Below, piece by piece: positions 9,014-17,427 of a DNA stretch of 64,000 nucleotides. The translations under genes were made by a program, and so were the position numbers. The stretch is taken from positions 7,006,001-7,070,000 of the forward strand of contig NZ_CP068595.1 in the NCBI RefSeq assembly GCF_016772475.1, read 5' to 3'. The notes under the pieces were generated by a model. It saw only the letters and a list, made by a program, of their open reading frames with translations. It did no database searches and was not told the origin of the DNA. The stretch comes from Paenibacillus sonchi (GTDB taxonomy: Bacteria; Bacillota; Bacilli; Paenibacillales; Paenibacillaceae). Numbering within the stretch: position 1 is the first letter of the stretch; each line of letters begins with the position of its first letter.

Positions 9014-9685
9014 TCACATTACGGTGCCGTCGTGCGGCTTGCTTAGTGTGGGCTGAATGGTTGGTGCTTTGCCCAGCTTAGGTCTGCCAAGTGAGGTTGT
9101 AAACGTAATAACGTAGCCGGCTACGACTACTGCCATTACTGTGTACAGCGTTTCCTTGAGAGGCATGTAGAAAAGCGATAATGCCAGAACGATTACATCC
9201 ATCAGGATAAATACGGTTCCTACCTTAATCCCCTTCCATTCACTGATCAGCAGCGACAAAATGTCGTCACCGCCGCTTGCCCCGCCGCCGCGCAGGACCA
9301 TTCCTGCTCCTAGACCTGTCAGTACACCGGACAACAGCGCCGCGAGCGGCAGGTTATCCTGCAAATTGATCACCCATCCGGAATACCGTTCCATCAGACT
9401 GTAGAATACCGTGAAGGCTCCTACGGAGATGAAGGTGTTCAAGACGAACGCTCTCCCTTTGAAGATCATCGCAATTAAGAGTACTGGAATGTCTAAGATT
9501 AGAATTGTTAAAGAAGGCGAAATGCCTAGCACATATTTGCCAAGCAGCGATAAGCCTACGAATCCGCCCTCGGTCAAATGATTCTGATAATTAATGTGAT
9601 AATAAGTAAATGCAAGCAGCAATGTTCCAGACAAAATGACTGTGAGTCGTAGCGGCATTCCCATGCCACTGTCTTGTTTCCTCAT
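9014..9685 (-). CDS. YitT family membrane protein
   Basis: A 223-aa integral membrane protein with about five hydrophobic helices. The family-defining segment is TGLGAGMVLRGGGASGGDDILS, followed by the helix VFILMDVIVLALSLFYMPLKETLYTVMAVVVAGYV. It lacks the C-terminal DUF2179 domain of longer YitT proteins, so it belongs to the short YczE/YitT-like group. Function is unknown; transport is only a guess. The start ATG is preceded by GGGGAG, and a structured leader (9700-9805) lies directly upstream. Confidence 0.83.
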   Translation of the reverse strand: MRKQDSGMGMPLRLTVILSGTLLLAFTYYHINYQNHLTEGGFVGLSLLGKYVLGISPSLTILILDIPVLLIAMIFKGRAFVLNTFISVGAFTVFYSLMERYSGWVINLQDNLPLAALLSGVLTGLGAGMVLRGGGASGGDDILSLLISEWKGIKVGTVFILMDVIVLALSLFYMPLKETLYTVMAVVVAGYVITFTTSLGRPKLGKAPTIQPTLSKPHDGTVM

Positions 9686-9699
9686 ACAGGTCTCCCCTT

Positions 9700-9805
9700 A
9701 TCGTATATGGCGGCTTAGACATCTGCCAAGCCTCTACGACGGGTCTGACCGGAGGAAGTGTTACTCCTTCGCATACAATACTCCCTTCCCTCGCAGAGGC
9801 GGCTA
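9700..9805 (-). promoter_or_regulatory. Candidate structured 5' leader (possible metal riboswitch) of yitT-like gene
   Basis: On the minus strand, GCCTCTGCGA (9800-9791) pairs with TCGTAGAGGC (9739-9730) over ten base pairs. It encloses GGAAGGGAGTA, GAAGGAGTAACACTTCC and GGTCAGACC helices. A further hairpin GGCTT...TAAGCC follows just before the ribosome binding site. The closed multi-helix layout and GGGAGTA recall yybP-ykoY manganese elements, but I cannot confirm the consensus. Confidence 0.35.
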
Positions 9806-10024
9806 ACGTCAATAAACAACGATTCGCGCACTTTCTACAGGGAAGCTAAGTATAAGACAGATCATAACGTTTCCAAATCGTCCTTTGGGGAATCGTCCTT
9901 CGGGGACACATGGTATCCTGATCCTTTCTCTAATTTGATGTGTTCTGAATAGATTATACCACGCGGAAGTGCCTCTCTAAACACTTTTCCATTAAAAAGC
10001 ATAAAGAACACTGTAAATTTTCTG

Positions 10025-10525
10025 TCAACCCGGATTGCGCAGCAGACGGTTGACTGTCTCCCGCCGCACGCCAATCAGCTGCCCGATCTCCTCCTGTGTC
10101 AATAAATCCGTCAGCTCTGCGCCATGGGAATATTCAAGAAGCCAGCGTTTCAGCAAATCCAGCCGCTCTCCGGGAGTGCCGACCGTAAGGTGGTCCAGGC
10201 GGGTCTGCATGAAACGCACCTTCTCTTGAAGCAGCAAGGCGATCTCCATCACCTTATCCGGATCCTCGCGCAGCTCGCGGTACCATTCCGCTGCCGGGAC
10301 AAGCTCCACTTCACTTTTCATCATTGCTACAGCCGTTCCATGCGCCTCCTTCGGTGAAATGAGTGAATGATGGGGGACAGTCTCCCCGGGGTACAAGAGA
10401 TTGAATAGAACCATGTTCCCATTCTCATGCAGCCGGATTACCTTAAAGAGTCCGCTCTTCACCTGAAACAGATTCTGGCAGGCATCCCCTTGGCGGAACA
10501 GGACCTCTCCTTTGTGCAAAATCAT
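10025..10525 (-). CDS. Crp/Fnr family transcriptional regulator, short
   Basis: A 166-aa protein with an N-terminal cyclic-nucleotide-binding-like barrel (HKGEVLFRQGDACQNLFQVKSGLFKV) and a C-terminal helix-turn-helix (LTQEEIGQLIGVRRETVNRLL). AAAGGAGAG precedes the ATG, so the short N-terminus looks genuine. The C-terminus stops straight after the recognition helix, without the wing found in most Crp/Fnr proteins (usual length 210-230 aa). No Fnr-type iron-sulfur cysteine cluster is present. It could be a small functional variant or a truncated one. Confidence 0.78.
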   Translation of the reverse strand: MILHKGEVLFRQGDACQNLFQVKSGLFKVIRLHENGNMVLFNLLYPGETVPHHSLISPKEAHGTAVAMMKSEVELVPAAEWYRELREDPDKVMEIALLLQEKVRFMQTRLDHLTVGTPGERLDLLKRWLLEYSHGAELTDLLTQEEIGQLIGVRRETVNRLLRNPG

Positions 10526-10726
10526 CCCGCTCTCTCCTTTATATTCTCAGTATGTATTACTCTATTCTACAAAATGTAAAGAAACCCTGTACCAAATTGC
10601 AGGCAGGGCACGATTTAGTCAAATTTACCAGAAGTTGAGCCAAATTAAGCTAAACTTCACTCCTGCCCTTTTATTAGTTGTACGTCCGGCTTAATAGTGC
10701 GCTCTGCCGGTTCAATGCCGACTGGC

Positions 10727-11260
10727 CTATCCTTGCTGCTGCCGTTTCTCCAGCCAAGCCAGCAGTTCATCAGCACAATCCTCCGGCGGATGTTTGGCCG
10801 TGTACAGCGTAAGCTCGGGGCTGGCAGGAGCCTCATAAGGGTCGGAGATGCCGGTAAAAGAGGGAAGCTCGCCACGGCGGGCTTTGGCATATAAGCCTTT
10901 GACATCCCGTGCTTCGCAAATCTCCAGCGGACAATTCACATACACTTCTACGAATCCGGGCAGCTGCTGCCGGGCATAGCTGCGCATTTCGGCATAAGGA
11001 CTGATCAGCGAGATCACCGTTATCACACCATGCCGGTTCAGCAGTTCCGCAACATAGACCGCCCGGCGGATGTTCTCGAAGCGGTCTTCCCGGCTGAATC
11101 CGAGTCTGCGTCCGATGCTGCGCCGCAGCTCATCCCCGTCCAGCCATTCCACAGCCTGCCCGGCTGCCCGCAGCCTGTCTGTAACCAGTGCGGCAACCGT
11201 AGATTTGCCGGCCCCGGACAGCCCCGTGAGCCAGAGGGTAATTCCCCGTTTGACACTCAT
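10727..11260 (-). CDS. cysC: Adenylyl-sulfate kinase (APS kinase)
   Basis: A 177-aa CysC, which phosphorylates adenosine 5'-phosphosulfate to PAPS in the cytoplasm. The P-loop is GLSGAGKST (residues 13-21); WLDGDELRRSIG, LGFSREDRFENIRR and ISPYAEMRSYAR are the APS-binding motifs, and VYVNCPLEICEARDVKGLYAKAR is the lid. Length is close to normal (about 200 aa). It is the last gene of the STM4011-4015-type operon and overlaps the radical SAM gene upstream by four bases (ATGA), so it is translationally coupled to it. No ATP sulfurylase or reductase gene is nearby, so PAPS here may serve sulfation rather than assimilation. Confidence 0.93.
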   Translation of the reverse strand: MSVKRGITLWLTGLSGAGKSTVAALVTDRLRAAGQAVEWLDGDELRRSIGRRLGFSREDRFENIRRAVYVAELLNRHGVITVISLISPYAEMRSYARQQLPGFVEVYVNCPLEICEARDVKGLYAKARRGELPSFTGISDPYEAPASPELTLYTAKHPPEDCADELLAWLEKRQQQG

Positions 11261-12129
11261 TCTTTTCCCTCCCGTACCCCGCAGGGGATTCGTTCCAGCA
11301 GCCCGGCTCCGTACACCTGCTGCAGCTGCAGCTCAGGCATATGGATATAGCCGGTATAGCAGTCACAGACCTTCATGCGGCAGCTCCGTTCCGCCGATAA
11401 GCCTTCCAGCCCGTCCCGGTACAGGTTGCCGATAACTCTCCTGTCCTTATAGCAGCGTTTGACCTGGCCGGGACCTTGCACATAGAAGACACTGCTGCCT
11501 GCACCGCAGGCTTTGCCCAGGCTTTCGTAGTCCCTCGCATTGAGCATGAAATACGGATCTATGCTGCTGAGGAAGGCTATATCTTCTCCCGTATAGTAAT
11601 TGGGCTTATCCTTGTAGGCATTCACCCACAAATAGACTTCTTCCGGCAGGGCTGCACGAAGGGACGCTATGGCCTCAAAGCTGCTTCGAATCCCGACGCT
11701 GCCCACACTGAGTGGAATGCCCTGCTCATACACAGCCATACATTGAGCAAGAAACCGCTGCTCCGTGACCTGACCCGGATGGTAGGTTGCCCAGAAGGCG
11801 GCCTTGTGCGGGTTCAGCCGGGCAGTGAAATCAAGCCCGGCCGACAGATTGGTCTGAATGGCCACCTTGTCGATATGGTTCAGATTGGCGAGCGTGATCA
11901 TGGCCTCTTTGTACCAGCGGTGAATCAGCGCCTCGCCGTAAGGATTGAAGAAGATAGACAGGCGATGACCTTCGGCTCCCTGGGCGGAAGCCCAGCTTAC
12001 AAACGCCTCCAGCTCCTCGCGGTCCTTGGCAAGGCGCTCCGCACTGTCTCTGGTTTTGCCAAAGGGACAATAGGGGCAATCATAGTTGCAGGAGGTGAGT
12101 GCACCCCGGTAGTAAAGAACAGCTCTCAT
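11257..12129 (-). CDS. STM4011-family radical SAM protein
   Basis: A 290-aa radical SAM protein matching the STM4011 family of Salmonella, which has no assigned reaction. The cluster motif is CNYDCPYC (C14, C18, C21). Additional cysteines near the C-terminus (KACGAG, QVKRCYKDR, CRMKVCDC) could bind an auxiliary cluster or substrate, as in SPASM/Twitch-type enzymes. FFNPYGEALIHRWY and NLNHIDKVAIQTNLS fit the SAM barrel. It overlaps both neighbours by ATGA, the tightest coupling in the window. The reaction is unknown. Confidence 0.87.
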   Translation of the reverse strand: MRAVLYYRGALTSCNYDCPYCPFGKTRDSAERLAKDREELEAFVSWASAQGAEGHRLSIFFNPYGEALIHRWYKEAMITLANLNHIDKVAIQTNLSAGLDFTARLNPHKAAFWATYHPGQVTEQRFLAQCMAVYEQGIPLSVGSVGIRSSFEAIASLRAALPEEVYLWVNAYKDKPNYYTGEDIAFLSSIDPYFMLNARDYESLGKACGAGSSVFYVQGPGQVKRCYKDRRVIGNLYRDGLEGLSAERSCRMKVCDCYTGYIHMPELQLQQVYGAGLLERIPCGVREGKE

Positions 12130-13511
12130 GGCAAAACAAACCTTTCCATCTGTTCCCTGATTTCGCCTGAAATAAACCAGTCGCCGATTGAATCAGAGTA
12201 GCCGAGGCCTTCCGGGGTTAAGCGCAATCTGCCTTCTTCTTCCCTGCCCAGGCCGCTCTCCAGCAGCAGCCCCAGCTCCGGGTGATCCCTCCATAGAGAA
12301 GATCCAAACCGCCCGCTGTAGTCCGCCAGCTTCAGTCCTTCGCTGTGCAGAACCGCCTTCAGAATATACCGCCGCTTCTGCTCTTCCAGGCTTAGCACAA
12401 TGCCATAATCTGCCGTGTCGAAGCGTTCTGCCGCAACGTAATCGGCGATAATGCTCTCCGTTGCCTTGCGGCTGACCCCGTAACGGGACGCATAATGCAC
12501 ATTCCGGGTATAGGATCTGGCTCCGCAGCCCAAGCCCACCATTCCTTCCTCCTGGCAGCTGTAATCTATGATTGATTTGTGCGTTCCGGCGGTTGCCCTG
12601 GCAAAGCGGCGCATGGAATATTGAGTGTAGCCATGCTCTGCCAAAAGCTGTTGCGCAGCCTTATAACATTCATGACGGATGTCCGGCTGGCGCCGGATAT
12701 CCTCTGGCTTCACGATCGTATGATCACGCGTATACAGCGGATAAATAAAAATTTCCTCCGGCTCATGGTTAACCGCCTGCTCCAGGGAATACAGCCAGGA
12801 GTCTACAGTCTGACCCGGGAGACCGTAGATCAGATCCAGATTCAGAATAGGAAAATCATACAGCTTCAGCAGCTCCAGCGCCCGGTATACCTCATCGGGA
12901 TTCTGCGGGCGGTAAATGGCTGCCGACTCGGCAGCGACAAAGCTCTGGATGCCCATGCTGACCCGGTCCACGGTATGCTCCTTCAGGATATTCAGCTTTT
13001 CCTCTGTCAGCGTCTCGGGAGAGGTTTCTACCGAGATCGAGGCCGAGGCCGGGTCCAAACCCATGATATCCTCAGCAATCCGGAACAGCCTGCGGAGCTG
13101 TGCTGGAGCAAGCAAGCTCGGGGTGCCGCCCCCGATGGCGAACCTTGCAAACGGCTTGCCGCCGGTGAATGCTGCCCACTGCCTAGCCTGGCGCTCCAAG
13201 GCATCCACATACACGGTATGCACCTCCGCCCGCTTGTCAGGCAGGGTGAACAGGTTGCAGAAGCCGCAGCGCGCGCCGCAAAAGGGAATATGCATATACA
13301 GAAAAAAGCTCTCCGCAGGCTCCTCCCGCCAGAGCGGCTCCAGCGGAACCGGCGGATTAAGGTCGCGGTAAGCGGTTTTGTGCGGATAGGAATATAAATA
13401 ATTGCGGTAAGGATCAGCGGTAATGTGTTCTCTCCACTGCGTAACGTCCTCCGAAGGGAATGGTGTTCTTCCGTCATCGCGGAGATGCAGGGGAGGCTGT
13501 GTTGACGTCAT
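12126..13511 (-). CDS. STM4012-family radical SAM protein (HemN/HemW-like)
   Basis: A 461-aa radical SAM protein resembling coproporphyrinogen III oxidase-like enzymes. CGARCGFC supplies the cluster cysteines C78, C82 and C85; FAIGGGTPSLL, SVETSPETL, VSMGIQSF and LNLDLIYGLPGQT follow in HemN order, and GLGCGARSYT lies in the C-terminal half. It lacks a reason to be a haem gene here: no haem genes surround it, and the family travels with STM4011, STM4013 and STM4014. AAGGATGGAG precedes the ATG. The 37-bp gap to the hydrolase gene is the largest inside the operon. Confidence 0.87.
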   Translation of the reverse strand: MTSTQPPLHLRDDGRTPFPSEDVTQWREHITADPYRNYLYSYPHKTAYRDLNPPVPLEPLWREEPAESFFLYMHIPFCGARCGFCNLFTLPDKRAEVHTVYVDALERQARQWAAFTGGKPFARFAIGGGTPSLLAPAQLRRLFRIAEDIMGLDPASASISVETSPETLTEEKLNILKEHTVDRVSMGIQSFVAAESAAIYRPQNPDEVYRALELLKLYDFPILNLDLIYGLPGQTVDSWLYSLEQAVNHEPEEIFIYPLYTRDHTIVKPEDIRRQPDIRHECYKAAQQLLAEHGYTQYSMRRFARATAGTHKSIIDYSCQEEGMVGLGCGARSYTRNVHYASRYGVSRKATESIIADYVAAERFDTADYGIVLSLEEQKRRYILKAVLHSEGLKLADYSGRFGSSLWRDHPELGLLLESGLGREEEGRLRLTPEGLGYSDSIGDWFISGEIREQMERFVLP

Positions 13512-13547
13512 ACGGTCTCCATCCTTTCGGTAAAATCGGGTGAATGG

Positions 13548-14332
13548 CTATAGGAAAAACTCCCGGTAAGGGACATTCCACACGGTTTCATGCGCCAGCC
13601 TGTGTCCATGGTAGCCATCTTCGCCGAAAGCCTCGCCATGATCTGAGAAAGCCAGGCAAAAAACCGGATTGCCGCGTTCACGAAAGGCCTCGAACAGCCG
13701 GCCCAGCTCGCCGTCGACATAACGCAGCGCAGCGCGCTGGGTGTCTATGGAATCTTTGCGGGCACCCGGCACAAAATAGTGATTCGGCCCGTGGATCGCC
13801 GAGACATTCAGAAACAGGAACAGCCTCTGATCCAGCGGGATGTCCTTCAGCAGCTTCAGGGCATGGTTCACCTGATGTTCTGTGGACCGGGGGTTCGTGA
13901 CCCCGAACGTCATCCGCCAGTAGCTGTGCTGGAAATAGCCCGGCAGGACCCGGGCGAGCGGTACTTTTTTGCTGAAAAAATCACGCCCCCAATGCAAAGG
14001 GTCCGATAGCCGGCGGCGGCAAGCCCTGACACAACATCCGGCGTATCAAACAGCCAGGTGTCGGGATGGGTCTTCATCCCGGTGTTCCGCGAGTGGAACA
14101 GCCTCACATGCCGGGATTTGTCCGTGGTAGCCGGGGTAGGCAGAAAACCGCCGAAAAAGGCATGATGCGCGGCATAGGTGAAGCTGCCGGGGGTATGCCT
14201 TTTTTCCCAGGAACCGGTCCCGCACAGATTGGGGCAGTTCGCTTCCTCCAGAACCGCTGCATCATAGCGGAGCGTGTCGAGCGTAATCATCAGCAGATCG
14301 TGGCTGCCGACAACAGCATTCATGTCTGTCAT
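13548..14332 (-). pseudogene. STM4013/SEN3800-family hydrolase, sulfatase/alkaline-phosphatase fold, with frameshift
   Basis: Joined, the two frames give a protein of about 261 aa of the STM4013/SEN3800 type. The N-terminal part holds LLMITLDTLRYD, the metal-binding start of the sulfatase/alkaline-phosphatase superfamily, and the C-terminal part AFSDHGEAFGEDGYHGHR, the second metal site. The reading frame breaks at about 13970-13981, where the coding strand reads GTGATTTTTTCAGC; one base is missing relative to an expected V-G-F-F-S segment. The start ATG (14332) overlaps the STM4014 stop as ATGA and has AAGGAAGG upstream. An indel in the T run, sequencing error, or ribosomal slippage could each explain the break. 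Confidence 0.8.
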
Positions 14333-15573
14333 AAGTGTCCTTCCTTTATGAGTTGCTTCAGTTCCCATTCATAGGTGCCAAATCCTTGATACTCTACGTC
14401 ATAGAGCAGATCTCCAAAAGGATTGACATCCGCGGCATAGGTTAGTTGAGAGCCTGCGGATACCAGCACATCTATACCTGCAACCCTTGATCCGGGAAAA
14501 GCCGCCAGCGCCTGGACCGCCGTCTTCCGCACCTGTTCCTGAGTCTCCCCGGAAAGCCCGGCCGCTGCCGGGGACATCCGGCGGCTGCGCAGATGAAGAT
14601 TGGTGATCGGTGTGGTGCTTACCCGGGCAATGGAGTGGCAGGCTTCGCCCAGTACCACCAGCTGGCGGATGTCAAGTGAAGCACCTCCTGCACCTGTTTT
14701 GGGAATCCATTGCTCGGCATATGCCCCATGGCGGCAGAGCCAGTTGATCAATCCGGCAATCGTTCGGCTGTCGGTATAACGCCGCAGCTTGCCGGAATTA
14801 TAATAAATTGGGGGACGGGTAATATAATTCTCTACCCCCACGGTAGTCACCGCAATCTCTGCCCCTGTGGACGGGTTCACCTGGTAGGCAATGACACCGG
14901 AAGCAGCGGACCCGCAGGCCAGCTTAATAAAAACCCGGTGCATCCGCTGCCGGATCATCTGTTCACGGATGGAGCTGTAGTCTTCAAGTGTCTGCTCTGC
15001 GCTAAGCGGACGCGGAATTCTGACACCCGCAGCGGCCAGAAGCTGCTGGGTACGCCGTTTGTCGGTCATATCCGCAATATCCTGCGGATCATTCAGCCAC
15101 CGCGAATCCGGCAGAAGGAGAGCCGCGTCCTTCCGAAGCCTGGCCAGCAGGCGGCAGTAGCCGCGAAACCACTGCGAAGGATGATGCAGCACACCGGGCA
15201 TGTCCTGAAGCCTGCCGGCGGTTCTGCAGCTTAGCGGAAACGGATCAGGCCTCTGCCCAAAGGGATGCAGGGCATCACTGGAGTCTCCGGCATCCGGCGC
15301 TCCGAGCGTAATTAAGGCCCGCTCTACCTCAAAGCTGCCGCCTGGCGAGTCCAGCCGGAGCAGCGGCGCGGACGGTCCGGCGCAAGAGGCGGCTGTCCGC
15401 TGCGGGTACCCCTCCGCCTCCAGCAGCTCGGCCAGCGTCCGGCCAACCAGCAGGCCGGTATACGGCAGAATGACCGCCGGCGGCAGCTCCAGACGGCTTC
15501 TGGCCTGTTGAATTCCGCCAGTCCGCTTGTCGCCGGGAATGCCGATGACGATCAGCGGCCGGGTCTCCTTCAT
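14329..15573 (-). CDS. STM4014-family ATP-grasp-like protein
   Basis: A 414-aa protein of the STM4014 family. ATP-grasp features are visible: KRRTQQLLAAAGVRIPRPL (start of the ATP-binding domain), RVFIKLACGSAASGVIAY (nucleotide-binding lysine and glycine-rich turn), the acidic VAGIDVLV, and DVNPFGDLL (metal-binding N/D). ATP-grasp enzymes join a carboxylate to an amine or thiol through an acyl-phosphate; the substrate here is unknown. The start overlaps the STM4015 stop (TGATG) without its own Shine-Dalgarno, pointing to translational coupling; a GTG one codon earlier is equally possible. Confidence 0.82.
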   Translation of the reverse strand: MKETRPLIVIGIPGDKRTGGIQQARSRLELPPAVILPYTGLLVGRTLAELLEAEGYPQRTAASCAGPSAPLLRLDSPGGSFEVERALITLGAPDAGDSSDALHPFGQRPDPFPLSCRTAGRLQDMPGVLHHPSQWFRGYCRLLARLRKDAALLLPDSRWLNDPQDIADMTDKRRTQQLLAAAGVRIPRPLSAEQTLEDYSSIREQMIRQRMHRVFIKLACGSAASGVIAYQVNPSTGAEIAVTTVGVENYITRPPIYYNSGKLRRYTDSRTIAGLINWLCRHGAYAEQWIPKTGAGGASLDIRQLVVLGEACHSIARVSTTPITNLHLRSRRMSPAAAGLSGETQEQVRKTAVQALAAFPGSRVAGIDVLVSAGSQLTYAADVNPFGDLLYDVEYQGFGTYEWELKQLIKEGHL

Positions 15574-16419
15574 CACTCTGTAATAGAAGGGTACCGCCAG
15601 TCTTCGTCATCATCGGTGGTCTGGCGGTCGCTGACATCGGCAGGCAAGCCGCTGTCCTTCCAGCGCGCAAGCATTTCATCAGACATGTAGTGATGACTGA
15701 GGTTCAGCGCCTTCAAGCCTTTGATCCGCTCGCTGGCCAGAAGCACCTCCGCGCCTTCGTCACTAAGCGTTCCCAGGGATAAGTCTCAGTGTATCCAGCT
15801 GGTCCAGAATAGGGGCAGCAGCAACCGCTATGGCGATTTCATCCTGGATTTCGCTGTTTTTCAGGCCAAGGTATGTAAGCTTGGGGAATTTACCCGGCTC
15901 AATAAGCGGAATAAGATCTGCAAGGCTGCCGTCAAAACCATAATCCTCCACACCAAGGTACAGCTCCAGCTTGCGCAGATTTGGCAGCTCAGAAGCCGCG
16001 ATTTGGGCCAGAACGGCTTTGCCCAGTCCCCCCGTTATAATAATTAGTTCTTCCAGCTTGTCATGCTGCAGTTTACTCAGGCTCAGCTCGTTCCCGCCCT
16101 GAATGGTCAGCGATTGAAGCTCCGGGAAAGCCGGCAGCAGCGGAGAAAGATCACTTTGCGTAATCCACGAAATCTCACATTCCTCATAGCCCATCTCGCC
16201 GATGAACAGCTTGCGGAGCGCCGGGAAGCTGGCGCTGTGTTTCACGAGCGCTTCTACAACCTCCTCCGAGCTGTTCTCATATGCCTGGCCCCAGTCTCCG
16301 ATAACAAGGCTGCTCAGCGATGCAGCTTCGGGACTTGCGCTTAAGCTTTCAATCGCTGTTTCTATCCGCTGGCCATCCTCAAATTCATCGTACCCAATCG
16401 CAAGCTTTACTTCCGACAT
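15573..16419 (-). pseudogene. STM4015-family leucine-rich-repeat protein with frameshift
   Basis: Joined frames give about 281 aa. The body is a leucine-rich-repeat solenoid (repeated L-x-x-L-x-I/L patterns such as LRKLFIGEM, LQSLTIQGG, LRKLELYLG, LTYLGLKNSE). After QLDTL the frame is off by one extra base (about 15784-15789). The resumed frame reads DLSLGTLSDEGAEVLL, then LKALNLSHHYMSDEM, and ends with DDDEDWRYPSITE, the normal family C-terminus. It is the first gene of the operon, with GGGAGGG before the ATG. LRR proteins usually bind protein partners; a scaffold or substrate-recognition role is inference. Confidence 0.78.
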
Positions 16420-16756
16420 GAATAATCCCTCCCGGCAAATTTTGGCTATAAATCACCCTAACATCTTCGGGGACGGTTGGTCAAATGAATCCAAGTGCTG
16501 CCGGTGAAGCCGGCTCTGTCAAACCGGGAGACACTGGTTGTTAAGTACCTTTTCATTGAAAAGAGCATCTAGCTCCTTCTATTCCAGTCCGTGTATCGAA
16601 AAAGTAGAGAGAGAGTTTGAAACTTTAGTATAAGCTATGTTCTGTCCGGGCATTGTGCTGGTCACTGAGGTGAGATAATTGGGCGCAAACGGCACCTTCC
16701 CGCCTGAGCAGCAACCCGCGCAAAGAACGGTATTTCTGCAGTTGTTTCCAACACTT

Positions 16757-16888
16757 CTTTTACCTCTCATTCCACCCTGTAGCCCGAAAACACCATATTC
16801 AAAGGTACTTTTACCTCTCATTCCATCCTGTAGCTCAAATTCCACCCCGTAGCCCGAAAATGCCAAATTCGAAGGTAATTTTACCTCA
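16757..16888. repeat. Tandem intergenic repeat, about 51-bp period
   Basis: CTTTTACCTCTCATTCCA begins at 16757 and 16808, each followed by a CCTGTAGC segment; a third CACCCCGTAGCCCGAAAA segment ends the array. A 127-codon frame on the minus strand covers it but lacks a credible start site and protein-like composition. The gap 16420-16756 otherwise holds only the operon promoter region. Confidence 0.65.
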
Positions 16889-16984
16889 TTCACCAATATG
16901 CTCGTTGGTCGGGATGGTGTATAGGTAGTGTGTATGGGTAGAACGTGTTTCAAGCGTTTCATTAGCTGGCTTCGTCAGCTGTTT

Positions 16985-17174
16985 AGGTGGAAAAAGTATC
17001 ACTAATTTGCTTAGGCATTCAATAACCCGGCAAGCTAAGTGGAAAAAGGCACACTAATTCAGCCTATTTCACCCCAGGTAAGGGTATATCACCGAAATAA
17101 GTTCCCTTTTTCCACTTAATCCTCGCGATTGTTGATTTCAGAGGAATTTAAGTTCCCTTTTTCCACTTAGCTGG
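16985..17174. repeat. AAGTGGAAAAAG-core dispersed repeat cluster
   Basis: Four copies: two forward (about 16986 and 17038) and two inverted (CTTTTTCCACTTA at about 17110 and 17155). The forward and inverted copies could pair into a long hairpin. The same core recurs at 28376-28616 and 47774-47855. No ORF is supported here. Confidence 0.7.
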
Positions 17175-17296
17175 CCACCGGGATCGCCTAACAACGGCAT
17201 TTCCGCCGTTACTTCTACGTCTGGAGCGGAGAGACTCACTTCTTTCCCATAAAATCCCCCACAAAGTGGGACTTTTGCATGCAAGCTGATTCAGAT

Positions 17297-17427
17297 ACTT
17301 TGCGGAGGCCCTAATGTATGCTTTCTGATACTTTGCGGAGGCCCTAGTATGCTTTCTGACACTTTGCGGAGGCTCTAATGTATGCTTTCTGACACTTTGC
17401 GGGGCCTTAATGTATGCTTTCTGACAT
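17297..17427. repeat. Tandem repeat of about 32 bp, four units
   Basis: ACTTTGCGGAGGCCCTAATG occurs (with small changes) at 17297, 17330, 17361 and 17394, spaced 33, 31 and 33 bp, each followed by TATGCTTTCTGA. A diverged single copy lies at about 23701-23745. Units are contiguous without unique spacers, so this is not a CRISPR array. Confidence 0.75.

Follow-up and report, generated by a model that had tools for sequence, protein, structure and literature searches.

RimK and LysX/ArgX are ATP-grasp ligases that attach amino acids to the C-terminus of a protein. RimK acts on the ribosomal protein RpsF, and no radical S-adenosylmethionine (SAM) enzymes are known to belong to that system. In the LysW system, a RimK-family ligase is paired with LysW, a small Cys-containing zinc protein that ends in the tail EDWGE and has kinase, reductase and aminotransferase neighbours. 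LysW carries the amino acid covalently on the gamma-carboxyl of its terminal Glu. Graspetide precursors are short peptides. In the graspetide and radical SAM pathways for ribosomally synthesized and post-translationally modified peptides (RiPPs), such as mycofactocin and the sporulation killing factor, ATP-grasp and SPASM/twitch radical SAM enzymes work on a ribosomal product. For the pearlins, the products of peptide aminoacyl-tRNA ligases (PEARL; e.g. 3-thiaglutamate, 3-thiahomoleucine), an amino acid is joined to a ribosomal scaffold at its C-terminus and is then rebuilt in place, in one case by a radical SAM enzyme (PMC9303977). Here, we analyzed a 64,000-nucleotide stretch of the Paenibacillus sonchi genome (the window; contig NZ_CP068595.1, positions 7,006,001 to 7,070,000). 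It carries a run of genes from the STM4015–STM4011 families, which encode a leucine-rich repeat (LRR) protein (STM4015), an ATP-grasp protein (STM4014), an alkaline-phosphatase/sulfatase-fold protein (STM4013) and two radical SAM proteins (STM4012 and STM4011). The anchored C-terminal tail of STM4015, which ends in Glu, is a new observation of this analysis.

As in the LysW–LysX/ArgX pairs, a RimK-family ATP-grasp ligase is combined here with a protein that has an acidic, aromatic tail and an essentially invariant terminal Glu. The tail is EDWRYPSITE in the window and RYVAVGE or WRYPSITE as a family consensus. However, STM4015 is an LRR protein without the EDWGE motif, and its neighbours are radical SAM and phosphatase-fold proteins. 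RimK, which also acts on a protein C-terminus, is among the nearest fold and profile matches of STM4014, but its substrate is a ribosomal protein. The pearlin scaffold is a peptide loaded in a tRNA-dependent manner, whereas STM4015 is a LRR protein; the Pfam family of LanB-like tRNA-dependent ligases was not found among the ten open reading frames (ORFs) scanned (9014–16962). In contrast to what is seen for graspetides and radical SAM RiPPs, conservation here lies in the tail at the C-terminus of a large folded protein, and no short precursor was found among ORFs of at least 45 aa.

The C-terminal tail of STM4015

The comparison comprised 105 loci, 15 from Paenibacillus and 90 others, in which several genera recur. 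A scan of one-genome-per-species contigs gave at least 538 confirmed relatives, of which the best 80 were kept, and 11 of the 13 plasmid matches were fetched. STM4015 proteins are mostly about 280 residues or longer. Toward their end, a variable acidic linker leads into a short conserved tail (R-Y-V-A-V-G/S-E-stop), with almost nothing beyond it. Once the pieces that ran past a contig end had been removed, Glu was the last residue in 114 of the 117 complete copies, including all 14 from Paenibacillus. In the 103 remaining copies, the consensus residues of the last seven positions were found 85 (Arg), 72 (Tyr), 53 (Val), 70 (Ala), 76 (Val), 47 (Gly) and 100 (Glu) times. The terminal Glu was missing from a single paralogue in L045, from another in L084 and from the copy in L076, whose end possibly lies in another reading frame. 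Thinning at 50% body identity left 43 of 45 copies with Glu, and 14 of 15 at 40%. The positions before Glu vary, yielding tails such as RYVAVGE, RYPSITE, NAMYTE and QGDYE. The information content of the last position was 4.1 bits for STM4015, 2.1 bits for STM4012 and 0.8–1.1 bits for STM4011, STM4013 and STM4014.

A tail expression, composed after the tails were seen, matched 98 of the 117 STM4015 copies and none of the 11,159 other ORFs of the loci. Within loci, 27 of 36 paralogue pairs had at least four of the last seven residues identical, with bodies that were 37–72% identical; each of the other nine pairs involved one odd paralogue in L045, L084 or L090. At the DNA level, the pattern (R/S)YVAV(G/S/A/T/R)E-stop had a single match in each of 9 genomes out of 40, against 1 of 40 for the reversed control. 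Five of these matches lay at the 3' end of an STM4015 match, and the other four fell outside the comparison. The pattern WRYPS(I/L)TE-stop occurred once each in 24 of 61 genomes of the genus (control: 0). Fifteen of these matches were located at the 3' end of an STM4015 match, the other nine genomes being outside that STM4015 search.

Fifteen further stretches were chosen by hand from genomes searched for tailed STM4015. Three of them (L186–L188) hold tailed STM4015 together with STM4014. Five STM4015-type copies lie apart from the main set, in stretches that contain no STM4014; the tail was kept in L182, L183 and L184, a Gly end was found in L181, and there was no tail in L185. Six ORFs with a weak STM4015-family match had no tail, and nothing was found in the L194 stretch. 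Two Saprospiraceae STM4015 proteins (L055:11054-12175 and L107:10858-11967) have an extra N-terminal stretch that resembles a WGR domain by eye.

STM4014 was nearest to RimK and LysX/ArgX both by profile search and by predicted fold (AlphaFold2 model with a predicted local distance difference test score of 90.7). The fold is similar to that of RimK, although the score of 27.6 bits against the RimK family model TIGR00768 is below the cut-off of 143.4. PsnB, a graspetide ligase, was also among the nearer folds; in these comparisons, made for STM4014 and STM4015, absence of a family from the match lists does not exclude it. STM4015 lies immediately upstream of STM4014 in 88 of the 89 loci having both. 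The lone exception (L049) has only an STM4014 fragment at the end of the stretch.

Because the anchored C-terminal Glu tail stands beside a RimK/LysX-type ligase, STM4015 reads as a substrate. The initial annotation suggested LRR-based recognition for this protein and proposed a search for a separate small ORF as a possible peptide substrate. This reading was not supported by an all-against-all comparison of the ORFs of the 105 loci (at least 45 aa, E 1e-5, ORFs overlapping core genes by at least 40% removed). Outside the five families, no ORF family occurred in more than 26 of the 90 non-Paenibacillus loci, and no small-ORF family common to most loci was found, while the feature typical of a substrate is seen in STM4015. 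A separate small-ORF substrate and a graspetide with a small precursor were both set aside on these grounds. We consider it an even call that the role of STM4015 should change from a recognizer to a probable covalent substrate.

Enzymes and distribution of the five-family set

In 14 aligned STM4011 sequences, the CX3CX2C motif (C20, C24, C27) and C211, C229, C253, C258 and C260 were invariant. At E 0.01, STM4011 had a single PDB profile match, the C-terminal part of SkfB (6efn, E 2e-4), which is named as a sporulation killing factor maturation protein in that entry. The SPASM Pfam model matched one STM4011 member weakly (18.3 bits, cut-off 21.5) and gave no match in the protein of the window. 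STM4012 matched HemN (1olt, E 4e-58) and the methyltransferase NocN (9p2u, E 5e-36). ATP-grasp ligation and radical modification, as put forward in the initial annotation, fit these families.

Formylglycine sulfatases carry the nucleophile motif C/S-x-P-x-R. In 21 aligned STM4013 proteins, F-T-x3-H (F63, T64, H68) was invariant, as was a His that comes after a D-H-G, which is also kept, and a conserved Cys/Ser-x-Pro-x-Arg motif was not found. From these motifs, we infer phospho- rather than formylglycine-sulfatase chemistry. Many PDB profile matches of STM4013 were sulfatases, mostly across the C-terminal part; hydrolysis by this protein is a guess. Nine proteins were also scanned with PADLOC (library of 2023). 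The sole match was partial (PDC-M51A, 43 bits, covering the radical SAM portion of STM4012), and an anti-phage defence function was set aside, as no full system was matched among them.

One search returned 2,280 STM4011 homologues. All five families were present in 72 of the 90 non-Paenibacillus loci, in line with the co-occurrence expected for one system, and in 14 of the 15 Paenibacillus loci. Among the 18 non-Paenibacillus loci without the full set, several end at contig ends, and L053, L061 and L066 hold the STM4015–STM4014 pair elsewhere on the contig. The set was kept across about 13 phyla, as assigned from record titles. The gene order STM4015–STM4014–STM4013–STM4012–STM4011 was found on plasmid records of Paenibacillus, Methylobacterium, Deinococcus, Streptomyces and Salmonella; its conservation in distant bacteria had been expected and holds both there and in the 105-locus comparison. 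Two unannotated actinobacterial plasmid records contained all five members as ORFs. Two blocks move apart, STM4013–STM4012–STM4011 and STM4015–STM4014, as in Myxococcus, Akkermansia and Pirellulaceae records. On a Bacteroides finegoldii plasmid, STM4011 forms one protein with a Cof-type HAD domain (L034:8965-10527); no STM4012 was found there, and STM4013 is present as a fragment of 77 aa.

Sixty genomes, including that of the window, were also compared. STM4011 was above the cut-off in 15 of them (with one more weak match, in G013), and so was STM4014 (with weak matches in 25 more). STM4015 was matched in 15 and exceeded the cut-off in 14, the fifteenth being the frame-split copy of the window's genome. 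The genomes with STM4011 and STM4014 above the cut-offs and any STM4015 match were the identical 15. Since the set is kept across about 13 phyla and the same 15 genomes hold these three families, a dedicated system is supported, in agreement with the small dedicated pathway first suggested for the window.

Searches of the open-access literature for the family names, the PDB entry 2ra8 and the gene combination yielded no functional report, consistent with the lack of an assigned reaction in the initial annotation. Two of the matches were single table entries, and no paper naming 2ra8 was found. This entry (Q64V53_BACFR, from Bacteroides) is an STM4015-family structure named 'uncharacterized protein'.

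The locus in the window and its accessory genes

The genes are transcribed from the minus strand in the order STM4015, STM4014, STM4013, STM4012, STM4011 and adenosine 5'-phosphosulfate (APS) kinase (Table 1). NCBIfam matches to all five families bear out the names given in the initial annotation. Four of them exceeded their cut-offs, and STM4013 stayed below as two pieces, as a result of its split frame; the second piece gave 40 bits with the Sulfatase Pfam model. The count of five genes between 10727 and 16419 was correct for the families, but the range holds six genes, as the APS kinase had been left uncounted, and neither STM4015 nor STM4013 forms one continuous open frame. The tight junctions reported earlier were reproduced. 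STM4015 and STM4014 have 1 nt in common, a 36-bp gap separates STM4013 from STM4012, and 4-nt overlaps connect STM4014 with STM4013, STM4012 with STM4011, and STM4011 with the APS kinase. The named STM4011 homologues nearest to this copy were from Paenibacillus.

Table 1. Positions in the window of the five-family genes, the STM4015 tail and the downstream neighbours.
Feature	Position	Strand	Evidence
STM4015-family LRR protein	15573..16419	-	NF038076, 276 bits (cut-off 275) on truncated first frame; frame change near 15.78 kb; second piece recovered in two further comparisons
STM4015 C-terminal tail codons, W-R-Y-P-S-I-T-E-stop	15573..15599	-	Pattern search, single match in the window's genome; tail tables
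STM4014-family ATP-grasp ligase, 414 aa, RimK/LysX-like	14329..15573	-	NF038074, 393 bits (cut-off 175); profile search; AlphaFold2 model; fold comparison
STM4013/SEN3800 alkaline-phosphatase/sulfatase-fold hydrolase	13548..14332	-	NF038075, two pieces, 214 + 165 bits (cut-off 250); frame change near 13.98 kb
STM4012-family radical SAM protein, HemN/NocN-like	12126..13511	-	NF006067, 583 bits (cut-off 380)
STM4011-family radical SAM protein, C-terminal Cys-rich (SPASM/twitch-like) part	11257..12129	-	NF038073, 390 bits (cut-off 200)
APS kinase (CysC), sixth gene of the run	10727..11260	-	PF01583, 196 bits; TIGR00455, 213 bits
Crp/Fnr-family regulator, downstream of the APS kinase	10025-10525	-	Family match; kept there in L013, L015, L016 and L019

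The window's STM4015 and STM4013 contain one frame change apiece, whereas both genes are open in all 13 close-relative loci (L013–L025), with STM4015 open across 281–283 aa. The nearest genome (G028) is 94–98% identical to the window over the aligned blocks. Sequencing or assembly indels are the likely cause, because 6 of the 45 ORFs matched in G028 (at least 150 aa) are frame-split in the window, i.e. four others besides STM4015 and STM4013; real decay of the two genes in this genome may be the other cause. The assembly of the window looks indel-prone. Upstream of STM4015 (16756–17426), there are several families of short direct repeats, which include two identical 21-nt copies (17098 and 17149) and three 49-nt copies spaced 31–33 nt apart.

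The APS kinase was present in all 15 same-genus genomes with the set versus 4 of 22 without it (37 genomes; Fisher p 5e-7, uncorrected for kinship). It adjoins STM4011 in 12 of the 14 set-bearing genomes compared and lies elsewhere in G001 and G007, G023 being outside the comparison. No APS kinase was listed for the Paenibacillus plasmid locus L027. Only one APS kinase was found in the window's genome, and the operon copy may be a plain housekeeping enzyme, because the ATP sulfurylase is located elsewhere in that genome.

DUF6745 and a small partner (about 98–118 aa where the start is clear) were found in 26 of the 90 non-Paenibacillus loci, always as a pair, and a HAD hydrolase family in 17. 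The two never occurred in one locus (hypergeometric 0.0015, uncorrected for kinship). A Cof-type HAD lies beside STM4011 or is fused to it in Salmonella and Bacteroides. DUF6745 also has copies elsewhere in genomes. None was found in the 40 genomes around that of the window, a search that gave no match anywhere. We treated it as accessory, not core. In L029, where the pair occupies 9878-11175, the partner has 98 aa and the motifs GHSHR, HEEH and QREY, and two partner proteins scanned gave no Pfam match.

Proposed role of STM4015 and alternatives

We regard it as a balanced bet that STM4015 is a covalent protein substrate, either carrier or scaffold, with STM4014 acting on its terminal Glu and the other enzymes elaborating or releasing the product. 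The LRR body would be held by the pathway enzymes, while the tail would present the terminal glutamate. The two radical SAM enzymes might rebuild the attached unit or adjacent tail residues. For STM4012, which is of the HemN/NocN type, this could be methyl(ene) transfer or a reaction of the decarboxylation type; for STM4011, which has an SkfB-like auxiliary-cluster region, it could be oxidation or cross-linking. As a guess, the phosphatase-fold STM4013 would contribute phosphoryl chemistry or release, together with the HAD, the APS kinase or the DUF6745 pair where present. More tentatively, we suggest that the folded LRR protein carries a radical-SAM-built small molecule on its C-terminal Glu, with the LRR body as an enzyme-docking platform and with swappable kinase/phosphatase accessories.

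Some results weigh against a covalent role for STM4015. DUF6745 and its partner are also C-terminally anchored (3.8 and 4.3 bits, n = 26 each), which implies either that a compact domain can mimic such a tail or that both proteins are also acted on. In the modelled STM4015 (from L046), the tail was predicted to be ordered with high confidence, and 2ra8 aligns up to the last residue of the model. The tail may therefore be a structural element, and 2ra8 was possibly in the training set of the predictor. LRR folds usually bind partners, and a WGR-like N-terminal stretch is present in two Bacteroidota copies. Along with the ordered tail, these features would suit a subunit with a non-covalent role in recognition or regulation. 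Its tail would cap the structure or serve as a peptide that docks to STM4014, and the pathway would have a small molecule or another protein as its target. We find this rather doubtful: it leaves unexplained why nothing follows Glu in nearly all copies and why divergent paralogue bodies keep the tail.

The tail could instead be the precursor of the product. The radical SAM enzymes would modify or cross-link Arg/Trp, Tyr and Glu, a peptidase would free a small peptide or cofactor, as for mycofactocin and pyrroloquinoline quinone, the LRR part would be a very large leader, and STM4014 would make an amide bond inside the tail. The aromatic residue and terminal Glu of the conserved tail, the SkfB-like Cys-rich part of STM4011 and the proximity of the STM4014 fold to PsnB are consistent with such a scheme, as is the work of many SPASM/twitch enzymes on RiPP precursors (PMC9012708). 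However, no peptidase was identified. The only families that occurred in more than 10 of the 90 non-Paenibacillus loci were DUF6745, its partner, the HAD and a heterogeneous component from 26 loci, the components of this comparison being partly annotated. The length of STM4015 is unlike that of the short graspetide precursors, and the residues before the terminal Glu vary, which makes this scheme unlikely. A role of STM4011 as an anaerobic sulfatase-maturing enzyme, needed for the activation of STM4013, is highly improbable. A Cys-rich C-terminal radical SAM protein does stand beside a sulfatase-fold protein, and one homologue (P0045) is named 'sulfatase maturation enzyme' by its source, but STM4013 has the invariant F-T-x3-H at the expected nucleophile site in place of the formylglycine motif, and SkfB was the sole profile match of STM4011.

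Five widespread families carry locus-number names only. The tail offers a concrete and falsifiable way into their function, as it points to the protein that would be modified, the residue and the enzyme. If STM4015 is a covalent substrate, the few ribosomal scaffolds on which products derived from amino acids are built would be joined by a large folded carrier. It would represent a third protein-carrier logic beside the LysW-type carriers and the pearlin scaffold peptides, present in some 13 phyla, and many environmental bacteria would be predicted to make a new metabolite or to modify a protein in a new way.

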